From Planctomycetales bacterium (lineage in GTDB: Bacteria > Planctomycetota > Phycisphaerae > Sedimentisphaerales > Anaerohalosphaeraceae): a stretch of DNA of 48,460 nucleotides. Positions 5,664 to 48,427 of the stretch are shown here, one piece after another (positions within the stretch are counted from its first letter, which is position 1; every line of letters starts with the position of its first letter). The stretch spans positions 1 to 48,460 of the forward strand of contig JAKEGM010000039.1 of assembly GCA_022615575.1 (NCBI GenBank). The letters run 5' to 3'. Under the pieces are notes generated by a model that worked only from the letters and a program-made list of their open reading frames with translations, was not told the DNA's origin and made no database searches. The translations under genes and the position numbers were made by a program.

Positions 5664-6374
5664 CTATCCGTATGTTGTCCCGCGCCAAATGTACAGCGCG
5701 TTGAGAGCCAGCAGATGGAGGGGGCCGTAAATGAAATCCATCACCGTCCAGGCAATAAAGATGCCGAATGCGCGGATCGTCGGATGGGCCATCAGGGCGC
5801 GGTAGTTATGGAGCGTGTTGCCCTTCAGGATAAACTCCATCAATGCGGTGCCGTCCAGCGGCGTAACAGGAATCAGGTTAAAGACGCACAGCAGCACATT
5901 GAGCGTGAATAAAATGCTGACCAGCACCGCCGCGGCCTTCGGCAAACCGTCGGATGTGGCCTCAACAACGGTTGTGAAATTAATCTTTTCGGGGGCGATA
6001 AAAATCCCCGCCGAAATCCCGATGTGGACGAGAATTCCCGCAACGATGACCAGTATCAGATTAGCCGCTGGCCCGGCCAGCCCCATCAGAGCCGCCTGCT
6101 TTGGATAGCGATGCGCCCAGTACGGGTCATACGGCGTACTCGCCCAGCCGATCATCCAGCCAAACTGAGTGCCGATAAAACTCAACAGCGGCACAACCAC
6201 CATCCCAAGCGGCGAGCGCTGAATGTGCGGAACGGGATTGAGCGTGACCAGGCCGTGACGCAGGGCCGTATGGTCGCCGAATCGATATCCCGCAAACGCA
6301 TGCGCAAATTCATGAAACACCGTTGAAAACACAAACACCAGATACCAGGCGATGCAAAGTTGCAAGGGGTCCAT
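5664..6374 (-). CDS. Site-2 protease (M50) family membrane metalloprotease
   Basis: The 236-residue multi-pass membrane protein carries the M50 zinc motif HEFAH (about 22-26) in its first membrane segment and a second metal-binding segment TPLDGTALMEFIL (about 172-184) that corresponds to the NPxPxLDG motif. PDZ and CBS domains are absent, so it is a minimal S2P like the YwhC/rhomboid-sized group. Such enzymes cut membrane-embedded substrates in regulated proteolysis; the target is unknown. The start codon is embedded at the edge of a 7-bp array (6374-6408), leaving no visible Shine-Dalgarno. The start cannot be much later because HEFAH follows closely. Confidence 0.88.
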   Translation of the reverse strand: MDPLQLCIAWYLVFVFSTVFHEFAHAFAGYRFGDHTALRHGLVTLNPVPHIQRSPLGMVVVPLLSFIGTQFGWMIGWASTPYDPYWAHRYPKQAALMGLAGPAANLILVIVAGILVHIGISAGIFIAPEKINFTTVVEATSDGLPKAAAVLVSILFTLNVLLCVFNLIPVTPLDGTALMEFILKGNTLHNYRALMAHPTIRAFGIFIAWTVMDFIYGPLHLLALNALYIWRGTTYG

Positions 6375-6408
6375 ATCAGTTACCAGTCATCAGTCAGCAG
6401 TTATCAGT
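6374..6408. repeat. 7-bp tandem array (5 units, TATCAGT-like), left end of candidate cassette
   Basis: Five contiguous units TATCAGT, TACCAGT, CATCAGT, CAGCAGT, TATCAGT fill the gap between the M50 start codon and the four-helix-bundle stop codon. The reverse complement (ACTGATA, ACTGCTG, and so on) matches the array at 6790-6810 on the other side of the small gene, so the two arrays are inverted. Confidence 0.85.
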
Positions 6409-6770
6409 TATTTGTTTATCCGCGTTGCCTTTAGAACAGAAAATAACATCTTAGCGATTTCGTCCGCATCTGCAAACAAACTTTCATATTCTTTTTTGAG
6501 CAGGTATCCTGTATCTTTTAACAATGACAACCAATATTTCGTTTCAAGACATTCCTTGTACGAGAGAGGCATTTTATGAGAAAAATCATCCTCAGAGATT
6601 GCACCATTTGCTTCAGCGATGTTAGCTCCTATCGAAGTTCCGCATCTTAAAAGTTGTTTTGACAATACATACTCTTTCTTGTGTTCACAAAGATACTGAT
6701 AGAGCTTTACCATTCGTATAGAAAAGGCATACGCTTTCTGATACACTTTGCTTTTTCGACCATCACTCAT
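6408..6770 (-). CDS. Four-helix bundle protein (23S rRNA intervening-sequence / S23 family)
   Basis: The 120-residue protein matches the four-helix-bundle family first known from intervening sequences in 23S rRNA genes. Diagnostic pieces are VYQKAYAFSIRMVKLY in helix 1, the RCGTSIGANIAEANGA turn (about 42-57) and the KECLETKYWLSLLKDTGYL helix. The biochemical role of the family is unsettled; related folds occur in the Avd accessory proteins of diversity-generating retroelements. A strong AAGGAG lies 5 bases before the ATG. The gene is visibly more AT-rich than its neighbours and is enclosed by inverted 7-bp arrays, which suggests horizontal or mobile origin. No rRNA gene is near. It sits inside an otherwise co-directional HD-SDR-M50-AKR run. 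Confidence 0.9.
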   Translation of the reverse strand: MSDGRKSKVYQKAYAFSIRMVKLYQYLCEHKKEYVLSKQLLRCGTSIGANIAEANGAISEDDFSHKMPLSYKECLETKYWLSLLKDTGYLLKKEYESLFADADEIAKMLFSVLKATRINK

Positions 6771-6789
6771 AAAAACTCCTTCATTGGCA

Positions 6790-6810
6790 ACTGCTGACTG
6801 TTAGCTGTAA
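6790..6810. repeat. 7-bp array (3 units, ACTGCTG-like), right end of candidate cassette
   Basis: Units ACTGCTG, ACTGTTA and GCTGTAA run into the end of the SDR gene. The SDR stop codon (6801-6803) and its last two codons (Tyr-Ser) come from this array. It is the inverted counterpart of the array at 6374-6408; the segment CAGTCAGCAGTT is shared exactly on the opposite strands. Confidence 0.75.
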
Positions 6811-7559
6811 ATCATTTTGGTTGTCATTCCGCCGTCGATAACGATGTTTTGGCCGGTGACAAAACCTGCTTTGTCCGAGCATAAATACAGCACCATCTCA
6901 GCGACGTCTTCCGGCCTGCCGACCCGCCCTGCCGGATGCTGGGCATGGTCTTGTGCTGACAGTTTTGTATGCTGACATCCGTGCTGATAGGCATCGGTCA
7001 CAATCCAGCCGGGGCTGATGCAGTTGACACGCACCTTCGGTGCTAAGCTGATGGATAGCGCGCGGGTTAATGCGACAAGGCCGCCCTTCGATGCCGAGTA
7101 GGCCTCGGTGTTCGGTTCGCTCATCAGGGCGCGCGTTGAGGCGATATTCACAATCGCGCCGCGATTTTTTTCCAGCTGTTCTTTGCAATGTTTTGCGCAC
7201 AAAAACGCGCCGGACAAATTGACAGCCAGCACGGCCTGCCACTGCTCCCAGGTCAACCTGTCCATTGGCTGATTGCAGGCCGTTGCCGCGTTGTGAATCA
7301 GAAAGTCAATGCGGCCAAAACGCCGTACGGCGTCTTCGGCCATCGACTGCACGGATGACTCCGATGCAACATCTGTTGCCGAAAAGAAGAACTTGTCCGG
7401 TGCGTTGAGGAACGCTTCGGCGCTGGATTGCAGCTCCGCGCTGTGTTCGGCGATGACCACATTGGCGCCGGCCTTCAAAAACAGTTGCGCGATGCACAGC
7501 CCGATCCCCCGGCCTGCGCCGGTGATAATCGCTGTTCTGTGTGAAAAGCATGAGTCCAT
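6801..7559 (-). CDS. Short-chain dehydrogenase/reductase (SDR) family oxidoreductase
   Basis: This is a 252-residue classical SDR. It has the cofactor loop TGAGRGIG, the NNAG-equivalent HNAAT, catalytic Ser in NIASTRALMS, the YxxxK pair in AYSASKGG and the C-terminal FVTGQNIVIDGG. The enzyme would oxidise or reduce an alcohol/carbonyl with NAD(P)H; the substrate is unknown. The ORF track begins 15 codons earlier and would overlap the upstream HD gene; the ATG at 7559 removes the overlap, has GGA upstream and leaves a 13-base gap. The stop codon and last residues lie inside a 7-bp array, so the C-terminus may have been trimmed or altered by that insertion. Confidence 0.9.
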   Translation of the reverse strand: MDSCFSHRTAIITGAGRGIGLCIAQLFLKAGANVVIAEHSAELQSSAEAFLNAPDKFFFSATDVASESSVQSMAEDAVRRFGRIDFLIHNAATACNQPMDRLTWEQWQAVLAVNLSGAFLCAKHCKEQLEKNRGAIVNIASTRALMSEPNTEAYSASKGGLVALTRALSISLAPKVRVNCISPGWIVTDAYQHGCQHTKLSAQDHAQHPAGRVGRPEDVAEMVLYLCSDKAGFVTGQNIVIDGGMTTKMIYS

Positions 7560-7572
7560 AAAATATCCTGCA

Positions 7573-8361
7573 TCACATTTGGATTCGATTTTGCACGTAC
7601 GCAAGAATATGGTCCGTTACCGGCCGAAGCTGGCTGGTGTTCGGCAGGAAGCTGATTATCGCCTGCAAATAGCCGCGGTCGCGGATTTGTTTGAGCGTGT
7701 GGCCAAAGTACACATCGAATACCCAGCCCAACTGCAGCAGCTTGGCGTCGTTGATGGTTCGGATCAGGCGATAGTCGATTAAGGTGTTGTTCAGGAGCGC
7801 CTCGATGATGGCCGGATTGCATTCCGGCGTGTTGGGAAACTCGATTTCCCACTTAAACTTTTCCGGCGTGTCGGCCAGAATACGGTAATTTGTTACCAGC
7901 AGATCAAAGATGTCCAGCTTGTCCGTATCGCGGATCATTTTGGAAAAATGCAGCGAGCGGTCATCCAGGGCGGGGAGTTCTTTGGCCCCGTGGAACTCGA
8001 CGGCCTGTTTGATGATCGCCCTTTCGTCAGCGGGCAGATTCTCCAGCAGGCGATGTTCATCCAGCACCGTCAGCGCCAGGAGACAATGATTTTCACTGAT
8101 TTGATCCTTGTAGGTGCGGTGGCGTTGAAACTGCGGGAAACGGCCGACATCATGGAACAAGGCGATGGCCTCCGCCAAAATCGCGTCGGGCCGAGCCATT
8201 TCAAGGGCAGCGGCCAAATCGCGCATCTGTTTGCAGACGCGGTGCGTATGGCATTCCTTGAGCCGGATGTTCTCATTTAAAAAATCATCGCCGTCGGCAT
8301 AAAAGCCCGCCGCAAAGCCGGTGAACCACCGTTTGTAATCCTCAAGCTGGGATTGCTGCAT
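7573..8361 (-). CDS. HD-domain metal-dependent phosphohydrolase
   Basis: The 262-residue protein has an HD-type fold: His in CHTHRVCKQM, the HD doublet in ALFHDVGRFPQ (about 69-70 of that segment) and a downstream Asp in RDTDKLDIFDLL. That is the H...HD...D metal ligand order of the family. HD proteins hydrolyse phosphoesters such as nucleotides or cyclic nucleotides; this one matches none of the named subfamilies I can recognise. It is 13 bases upstream of the SDR gene and probably co-transcribed with it. No signal peptide is present, so it should be cytosolic. Confidence 0.85.
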   Translation of the reverse strand: MQQSQLEDYKRWFTGFAAGFYADGDDFLNENIRLKECHTHRVCKQMRDLAAALEMARPDAILAEAIALFHDVGRFPQFQRHRTYKDQISENHCLLALTVLDEHRLLENLPADERAIIKQAVEFHGAKELPALDDRSLHFSKMIRDTDKLDIFDLLVTNYRILADTPEKFKWEIEFPNTPECNPAIIEALLNNTLIDYRLIRTINDAKLLQLGWVFDVYFGHTLKQIRDRGYLQAIISFLPNTSQLRPVTDHILAYVQNRIQM

Positions 8362-32141: not shown

Positions 32142-32150
32142 AATTCAAAA

Positions 32151-32192
32151 CATTTCACATTTGGCATTTCACATTTGGCATTTGGCATTTTT
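32151..32192. repeat. 7-bp tandem array (6 units, CATTTGG-like) forming the pdxA 3' end
   Basis: Units CATTTCA, CATTTGG, CATTTCA, CATTTGG, CATTTGG, CATTTTT. Read on the minus strand the array encodes the last residues of PdxA (KCQMPNVKCQM) and the TGA stop at 32155-32157. Three units are 21 bases, hence the heptapeptide KCQMPNV that starts to repeat. Confidence 0.9.
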
Positions 32193-33207
32193 TTGTTTTC
32201 GCCATTTGCACGGCTGTGCGGATGGCCTCTTTCATCGCGCTGGGATTGGCGATGTTCTTGCCGGCGATGTCAAACGCCGTGCCGTGGCCCGGCGAGGTGC
32301 GGATAATCGGCAGCCCCAGCGTTACATTGACCGCCCTGTCGAACGCCGCCATCTTGACGGGAATCAGCCCCTGGTCATGGTACATCGCCACCACCCCGTC
32401 GTATTCGCCCTGAGCGGCATGGTAAAACAGCGTATCGGCCGGATACGGCCCCGTGCAGTGAATACCTGCTTCCTGGGCCAACAGAATGGCCGGGCTGATA
32501 ATCCGTTTTTCCTCGTCACCGAACTGGCCGTCCTCGCCCGCGTGGGGATTCAGACCCGCCACAGCAATGTGGGGTTTAGCTATCCCGAAATACTGCTTCA
32601 GGGCTGCATCCAGAAGGTCAATCGGCTCAAACACGCATCCAATGGTAAACTTGTGGCGTACCTCGAACAGCGGCACATGAATTGTCGCCAGCGCCAGTTT
32701 CAGCGGACCGGCGATAAACATCATCACCTTCCGCGGCGACTTGCAGCGGTCAGCCAGCATCTCGGTGTGTCCCGTCCATGGGCTTTCGGCCAAGTGCCAG
32801 CTGGTCTTGCTGACGGGCGCCGTTACGACGGCATCAATCAGCCCGTCTCGGGCCGCATCGATGGCGTCCAGACAGAACCGCATCGACGCTTCGCCCGATG
32901 TTCGTGCGGGGGCGTGCAGCCATGCGGGCACCGAGTATTCATCATAATCGGCGATGACCACCTGCCGCGGATAATCGCGGCTGATTTTTTCGTGGGGATG
33001 CCGCAGCCAGAATGGTTCGACCTCCGCCAGGTCGGCGGCATATTCAATCTGTTCGTCCAGGCCGAAGATGATGAACTTGGCCATCCGGCGGATGGAAGGG
33101 TCGGCCAGCGCCTTGACGATGATTTCCGGGCCGATGCCGCCGGGGTCGCCCATCGTAATCCCAATGACCGTCTCATTGCCCAGCAGGTTGTTCATGGCGT
33201 CGTTCAT
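32155..33207 (-). CDS. pdxA: 4-hydroxythreonine-4-phosphate dehydrogenase
   Basis: The 350-residue enzyme of pyridoxal phosphate synthesis oxidises 4-phosphohydroxy-L-threonine with NAD. Clear segments: GITMGDPGGIGPEI at the start, TAPVSKTSW, TGHTEMLA with a metal His, AGLNPHAGEDGQFG, GPYPADTLFY and MYHDQGLIPVKM. The natural end should be near AIRTAVQMAK; the following TKKCQMPNVKCQM tail is encoded by a 7-bp array, so the C-terminus was extended by the array. The start abuts the ribE stop. PdxA in a riboflavin/rRNA methylase operon is plausible for cofactor supply. Confidence 0.95.
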   Translation of the reverse strand: MNDAMNNLLGNETVIGITMGDPGGIGPEIIVKALADPSIRRMAKFIIFGLDEQIEYAADLAEVEPFWLRHPHEKISRDYPRQVVIADYDEYSVPAWLHAPARTSGEASMRFCLDAIDAARDGLIDAVVTAPVSKTSWHLAESPWTGHTEMLADRCKSPRKVMMFIAGPLKLALATIHVPLFEVRHKFTIGCVFEPIDLLDAALKQYFGIAKPHIAVAGLNPHAGEDGQFGDEEKRIISPAILLAQEAGIHCTGPYPADTLFYHAAQGEYDGVVAMYHDQGLIPVKMAAFDRAVNVTLGLPIIRTSPGHGTAFDIAGKNIANPSAMKEAIRTAVQMAKTKKCQMPNVKCQM

Positions 33208-42998: not shown

Positions 42999-43033
42999 CA
43001 GAAGTCAGAAGACAGTATTCAGAATACAGAAAA
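42999..43033. repeat. 7-bp tandem array (5 units, CAGAAGT-like) in the folD leader
   Basis: Units CAGAAGT, CAGAAGA, CAGTATT, CAGAATA and CAGAAAA lie between fhs and folD, starting 8 bases before the folD ATG. The unit is close to that of the array at the right edge (CAGAAAT). Confidence 0.8.
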
Positions 43034-48165: not shown

Positions 48166-48346
48166 TGCATCTCCCGTGTACAAACCCAAAAAAAGACAAC
48201 AAACAACCTGATTGTCCGGACTATTCTAACGAATTTACCACGCCTTGACAAGAGATGAGCAAAAATGGCCTTACTGGCGGCAGGGGGTTCTCAATGACTC
48301 GACAAGCAAATTCTTCCCGAGCCGCGGCCCTTTGCCCCTTGACATG

Positions 48347-48427
48347 CAGGAATCAGAAATCAGGAATCAGGAATCAGGAATCAGAAATCAGAACGCAGAA
48401 TGCAGCAATCAGGAATCGGGAATCAGG
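48347..48427. repeat. 7-bp tandem array (11 units plus a part, CAGGAAT-like)
   Basis: Eleven full units (CAGGAAT five times, CAGAAAT twice, CAGAACG, CAGAATG, CAGCAAT, CGGGAAT) and a partial CAGG. It is the longest array in the window and lies upstream of pheT, about 180 bases from its start. It contains no long ORF or other signal. Confidence 0.95.

Follow-up and report, generated by a model that had tools for sequence, protein, structure and literature searches.

In the analyzed window, a stretch of 48 460 nt that represents one contig of a 2.39-Mb genome (160 contigs, ∼90% completeness), we found a unit at approximately positions 6375–6809 that we interpret, with a probability of roughly 0.7, as one copy of a minimal mobile element, in which a gene of the S23 family lies between inverted heptamer or octamer arrays specific to the particular element; transposition itself was not observed. 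Our best reading is that this cassette is kin to the S23-bearing intervening sequences of 23S rRNA genes, but lives between the genes of operons. It would thereby link the 23S rRNA insertion puzzle to unexplained intergenic 7-base repeats as a widespread and barely noticed kind of mobile DNA. If this holds true, a protein family hitherto associated mainly with fragmented 23S rRNA obtains a function-level context, the origin of many bacterial heptamer arrays is explained, and a very small candidate mobile element composed of one 120-aa protein and co-evolving ends is at hand. As each element tests what the protein recognizes, the long-standing problem of the origin and spread of intervening sequences becomes directly testable.

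The gene encodes a four-helix-bundle protein of 120 aa (S23/23S_rRNA_IVP; 6408–6770, minus strand; PF05635, E = 2e-31) and, by sequence reading, has a Shine–Dalgarno sequence AAGGAG (6776–6781, minus strand) 5 nt upstream of its ATG. It is located between an SDR gene as upstream host gene (6801–7604, minus strand; PF13561) and an M50 peptidase gene as downstream host gene (5664–6374, minus strand; PF02163). The 3′ terminal array (6376–6410, minus strand) comprises five in-register heptamers of the TAACTGA type, which read in gene sense TAACTGA-TAACTGC-TGACTGA-TGACTGG-TAACTGA-T and are followed by the M50 ATG (at 6374). Its first TAA is the stop codon of the S23 gene, and the array, which takes up the leader of the M50 gene, stays 1 nt short of the M50 start codon; because cassette insertions replace ribosome-binding leaders inside operons, host genes may be retuned. 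The 5′ terminal array (6789–6809, minus strand) is inverted with respect to the 3′ array, consists of only three heptamers (TACAGCT, AACAGTC and AGCAGTT). The SDR stop codon (TAA, 6801–6803) falls within it. Both arrays share an exact inverted 12-mer, with CAGTCAGCAGTT at 6391–6402 and its reverse complement AACTGCTGACTG at 6789–6800 (both on the plus strand), each occurring a single time in the window. The unit between the two host genes measures 436 bp with a GC content of 37% compared to 56% for the contig (S23 gene 36.4%, M50 56.1%, SDR 55.3%, window 55.9%). The S23 gene is the sole ORF between the arrays, and a transposase is absent there. The first-pass annotation had described a low-GC gene of the four-helix-bundle family known from 23S rRNA intervening sequences, enclosed by oppositely oriented 7-bp arrays that have an inverted sequence in common and touch the coding ends of both neighbors, in a unit of ∼440 bases with one protein and no transposase, and our analysis bears out this description. 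The array-to-flank match of the cassette is significant against shuffled sequences (p = 0.0006) and was equalled by none of 3190 other 60-nt stretches. Strong arrays with a lag of 7 were observed four times in the window, while no strong arrays were observed there at lags of 4, 5, 6, 8, 10, 11 or 13. With a looser statistic based on 220-nt flanks the cassette scored 15, which is by itself unexceptional, so that the case for this copy rests on recurrence; moreover, its boundaries are fixed to within a few bases only.

For the evaluation of recurrence we defined an arm score as the best match between the left flank and the reverse complement of the right flank, and applied it to S23 genes and to control frames of the same geometry in the same loci. 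We observed a score of at least 18 in 50 of the 76 usable loci (66%; 80 loci from many phyla, collected with a single protein query), compared to 62 of 1431 control frames (4.3%; Fisher p ∼1e-42). This cut-off was chosen after the first loci had been viewed; a further 25 loci from the phylum of the window's genome were scored later with it and gave 16 of 25, compared to 15 of 123 control frames. Among the control genes PilC, RnfA and M50 the fraction was 0%. The recurrence fraction is nevertheless approximate, since some GC-rich loci (e.g. L140, L144, L315, L316 and L332) score high and show no heptamer arrays by eye. About one-third of the S23 homologues have no clear arms. The period of the left arrays was 7 in 44 of 64 cases and 8 in 18, with other values found almost never, and the median number of units per array was 4.6–4.9. 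In the window's genome, ten PF05635 genes are present, most of them with their own matched inverted arrays, whose unit varies from copy to copy (CAGTCCC/GACTGAA, TGAATTA/ATAATTC and ATTGTAA/TTACAAT); in the whole phylum the family occurs in 151 of 294 genomes. The genomes compared are mostly draft assemblies, and the inverted-array layout was found in isolate genomes as well (Flavobacterium, Chryseobacterium and others). Taken together, the arrays recur across many phyla; a search for them around homologues had been suggested as a check. We also noticed one locus (L029) with a near-palindromic match of >100 nt between the flanks of the S23 gene and heptamer arrays on both of them, apparently a paired double array.

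The elements show a preferred placement. The upstream neighbor is co-directional with the S23 gene in 66 of 70 cases (control 117 of 151, p = 0.002) and the downstream neighbor in 59 of 68 (p = 0.07). The stop codon of the upstream gene is mostly found within ∼30 nt of the point where the left arm begins. In the 5′ arm G exceeds C in 62 elements and falls below it in 7 (repeat: 14 versus 2); this excess represents polarity and not composition, because the 3′ arm shows the reverse skew on the same strand. An Rfam search of 40 cross-phylum S23 loci revealed no rRNA, and therefore the usual home of the S23 family is not 23S rRNA. Near one S23 locus (L103, KSB1 bacterium) two Acido-Lenti-1 RNAs (RF01687; 3474–3519 and 4047–4092) were found ∼530 bases apart.

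Next, the host sites were compared between genomes. The SDR gene lies directly upstream of the M50 gene, without an S23 gene, in seven relatives, one of them from the same genus, and at the rnfE–rnfA junction a 432-bp cassette is present in the window's genome alone of 30 genomes, with a gap of 3–192 bp in the other 29. Occupied and empty sites, which had been suggested as a check, thus both exist, and the cassette is inserted DNA. The nearest empty sites are too diverged from the occupied ones for a target-site duplication to be resolved, and the genomes offer no strain-level pair of occupied and empty sites. At pilB–pilC an S23 cassette was found in 12 of 26 resolved genomes with heptamers differing among them, and in the protein tree (∼107 columns) these copies form one old clade, so that some copies are long resident. 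The earlier interpretation as a mobile unit is supported by the empty SDR–M50 and rnf sites, with the qualification that the cassette has a long history at pilB–pilC. The same old clade is what can be said for an ordinary, vertically inherited operon gene with repeats that arose by chance or as assembly artefacts, an explanation that is scarcely tenable in view of the empty sites, the low scores of the control frames in both sets and the identical layout in isolate genomes.

The alignment of the rnfE–rnfA and pilB–pilC copies of the window's genome (L008 and L010) extends across the cassette, arrays included, and breaks down beyond them; their proteins group as sisters in the tree (support 100/93). 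Their dS of ∼1.5 rules out a recent copying event, and the rnf copy need not derive from the pil copy in this genome. A gene of the window's genome (L004) and one from another genome of the genus (L027) have 77% protein identity and common heptamers at different sites. More generally, array similarity tracks protein identity (Mantel r = 0.18, p = 0.0005); for pairs at different sites it amounts to 0.36 at >65% identity and 0.74 at >75% (n = 2), with a baseline of ∼0.19. Closely related proteins at different sites hence carry similar arrays. Relics were detected at both junctions: at pilB–pilC one genome retains the two arrays plus the final codons of the S23 gene (L088) and another a 24-bp footprint (L071), and one rnf site (L052) holds an array pair without a gene. 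In the pilB–pilC junction with the footprint, which comes from the same genus, only GGATTGT-CAGAAGT-ACAATT is left, possibly what excision or deletion has spared of the cassette that the window's genome carries.

Within the pilB–pilC series, left and right arms agree inside each genome with a mean score of 20.5, compared to 12.9 for swapped pairs (permutation p < 1e-5, 12 genomes), and both ends of each copy thus stay matched while the sequence changes between genomes. One explanation for matched ends is an RNA-processing insert, whose arms pair in the operon transcript, with RNase III cutting the stem and selection keeping the pairing and not mobility. The ends of the cassette do pair in both the MFE and centroid RNA folds, RNase III is known to excise 23S intervening sequences (PMC4990558), and the elements are sense-oriented within operons. 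However, a wobble-asymmetry test of the arm transitions gave 130 G–U-compatible versus 141 G–U-incompatible changes (p = 0.54), i.e. no excess and no sign of selection on the arms at the RNA level. Folding of the complete unit is no more favorable than that of shuffled versions (z = −0.05); the insertions are sporadic, and we consider this explanation unlikely. From the suggested check of RNA structure, the pairing of the ends was therefore retained, whereas a fold of the whole unit was not.

We next turned to the protein. A solved relative (PDB 2rld, E = 4e-30) has five chains, whereas a single-sequence AlphaFold model of the S23 protein was set aside for its low confidence (pLDDT 62). The dN/dS ratio is ∼0.05–0.11 in most computable pairs and 0.27 in the most divergent one, values that correspond to strong purifying selection on the protein. 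In-frame stops were observed in four S23 homologues (L035, L036, L109 and L110), so that decayed copies exist beside conserved ones. No recognizable catalytic or nuclease domain was found in the protein.

Genes of another family, GxxExxY/PDDEXK_3 (PF13366), are flanked in relatives by inverted arrays with three units per end and a period of 9–10, for example of the CCACGAAGNNCACGAAG and CACAGATT types (L203, L207 and L225 of the set L200–L229). An arm score of at least 18 was reached by 18 of 22 of them, and none occurs in the window's genome. The GxxExxY cassette is therefore analogous to the S23 cassette, with units of 9–10 nt. Small GIY-YIG genes, considered as further cargo, were rejected with inverted arrays in only 1 of 17. 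The design of a single gene between inverted short-unit arrays, shared by two families, together with the missing nuclease domain of S23, would be expected if the S23 gene were passive cargo and a host transposase or recombinase recognized the arrays and moved several small genes in trans. This is rather unlikely in our view, as the unit length is family-specific (7–8 nt for S23, 9–10 nt for GxxExxY), the arrays track the S23 protein as described above, and neither a reverse transcriptase nor a Y1 transposase emerged as a partner. A reverse transcriptase (PF00078, RVT_1) was not found in the ∼90%-complete genome of the window and was dismissed as a partner. The same genome has one partial match to a Y1 transposase, and a relative with three S23 genes (G028) has no Y1 match at all; a Y1/RAYT partner was discarded, since the Y1 distribution does not follow the S23 genes. 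Avd, the accessory protein of diversity-generating retroelements, forms a related five-membered ring of four-helix bundles; unlike in such a retroelement, no reverse transcriptase domain was found in the window's genome.

For the mobile element with its own S23 protein we can outline a possible course of events. In this model the element lies, in sense, where the stop codon of one gene meets the start codon of the next co-directional gene, and it moves together with its arrays. The S23 protein, as a five-membered ring like that of the solved relative, probably recognizes the arrays, with ∼5 units bound in each, either as DNA or as a transcribed stem. This recognition is an inference without binding data, argued from the family-specific unit length. 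The bound ring could bring the ends together and mark them for mobilization, while strand transfer may be carried out by a host enzyme or an unidentified one. Hairpin-templated repair or arm-to-arm conversion is conceivable as the process that keeps the arms matched, and loss of the gene would leave solo or paired arrays. The same kind of insertion inside 23S rRNA would correspond to the known intervening sequences.

Several known systems resemble the cassette. The intervening sequence of Coxiella measures 428 nt; it carries an S23 ORF in sense, preceded by tandem GACAGAT heptamers, and its ends form a stem of 28 bp (PMC4990558). S23-ORF intervening sequences also occur in Leptospira and others, as cited there, and the proposal of a mobile origin is an old one (PMC4990558). 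With these the cassette has in common the protein family, the size of ∼430 nt, the sense orientation, the low GC content and inverted repeats at the termini that can pair into a stem, with direct heptamers upstream of the ORF in the intervening sequences. Unlike them, it is located between protein genes and not in helix 9, 25 or 45 of 23S rRNA, its gene looks expressed and is conserved, and its arrays are present at both ends and differ between elements. Of the criteria for an intervening sequence, the SDR–M50 cassette meets the sense S23 ORF and the terminal stem-forming repeats, but not the location inside a 23S rRNA gene. The suggestion of a so far undescribed mobile unit gains support from recurrence and empty sites as far as mobility goes, but the layout was already known from S23-bearing intervening sequences (PMC4990558). 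Like insertion sequences and MITEs, the cassette has inverted ends, empty sites and gene-less derivatives, but it has no transposase, its ends are short-unit arrays varying between copies and no target duplication has been shown. With REPIN/RAYT systems it shares the association of a single protein family with small, dispersed inverted repeats, but its distribution requires no Y1 transposase and its repeats are heptamer arrays and not REP hairpins.

TAACTGA direct repeats were described in Beggiatoaceae, Cyanobacteria and Bacteroidetes (MacGregor 2015, PMC4679880), where they lie beside start codons without a protein, and a binding protein was suggested as a possible mobile element. The 3′ array of the cassette is of the same type and, like the largest class in PMC4679880, stops 1 nt short of a start codon. 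The published repeats, however, are mostly solo with no protein assigned, while those of the cassette form an inverted pair associated with an S23 gene. We found no open-access paper that links S23 genes to TAACTGA repeats or describes inverted arrays around S23 genes. It could be argued that regulatory or slippage repeats, in the form of heptamer arrays of the STRR/TAACTGA type, were there before the S23 genes, which merely lie in or beside them; solo arrays upstream of start codons are indeed common here and have been published as well (PMC4679880). This is improbable, because insertion into an array would give direct and not inverted flanks, the empty SDR–M50 sites and most of the rnf sites are free of arrays, and the matched arms are element-specific.

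Within the window, three further heptamer arrays were found without an S23 gene, of which the first two abut the rsmA and folD start codons from upstream. A TGCCAAA-type array between the pdxA stop and the rsmA start (32149–32199, minus strand) is a probable relic; the second (42999–43033, minus strand) lies directly 5′ of the folD start, and a CAGGAAT-type array of ∼12 units (48341–48427) lies near the contig end. The pdxA–rsmA junction is gapless or overlapping in most of the family. In the window's genome and three others of the genus it carries differing solo heptamers, which, judged from their sequence, look like relics of repeated insertion. Both the solo arrays and those without a gene have the appearance of relics and may account for the published TAACTGA repeats. 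As a possible rather than probable generalization, we propose ‘iteron cassettes’ as a separate class of minimal mobile DNA with members in many phyla. It would combine a small protein, an S23 ring or a GxxExxY nuclease-like protein, with mirrored short-unit arrays. The protein family would determine how long the unit is, and the array sequence would be rewritten jointly at both ends; the products or relics of this class would be 23S intervening sequences, heptamers of the STRR/TAACTGA type and related repeats without a gene. In other genomes the pdxA–rsmA junction holds GxxExxY-like pairs without a gene (L282 and L295), and inverted pairs of this type were also seen at the pilB–pilC operon junction (L072, L084 and L085); they resemble miniature derivatives.
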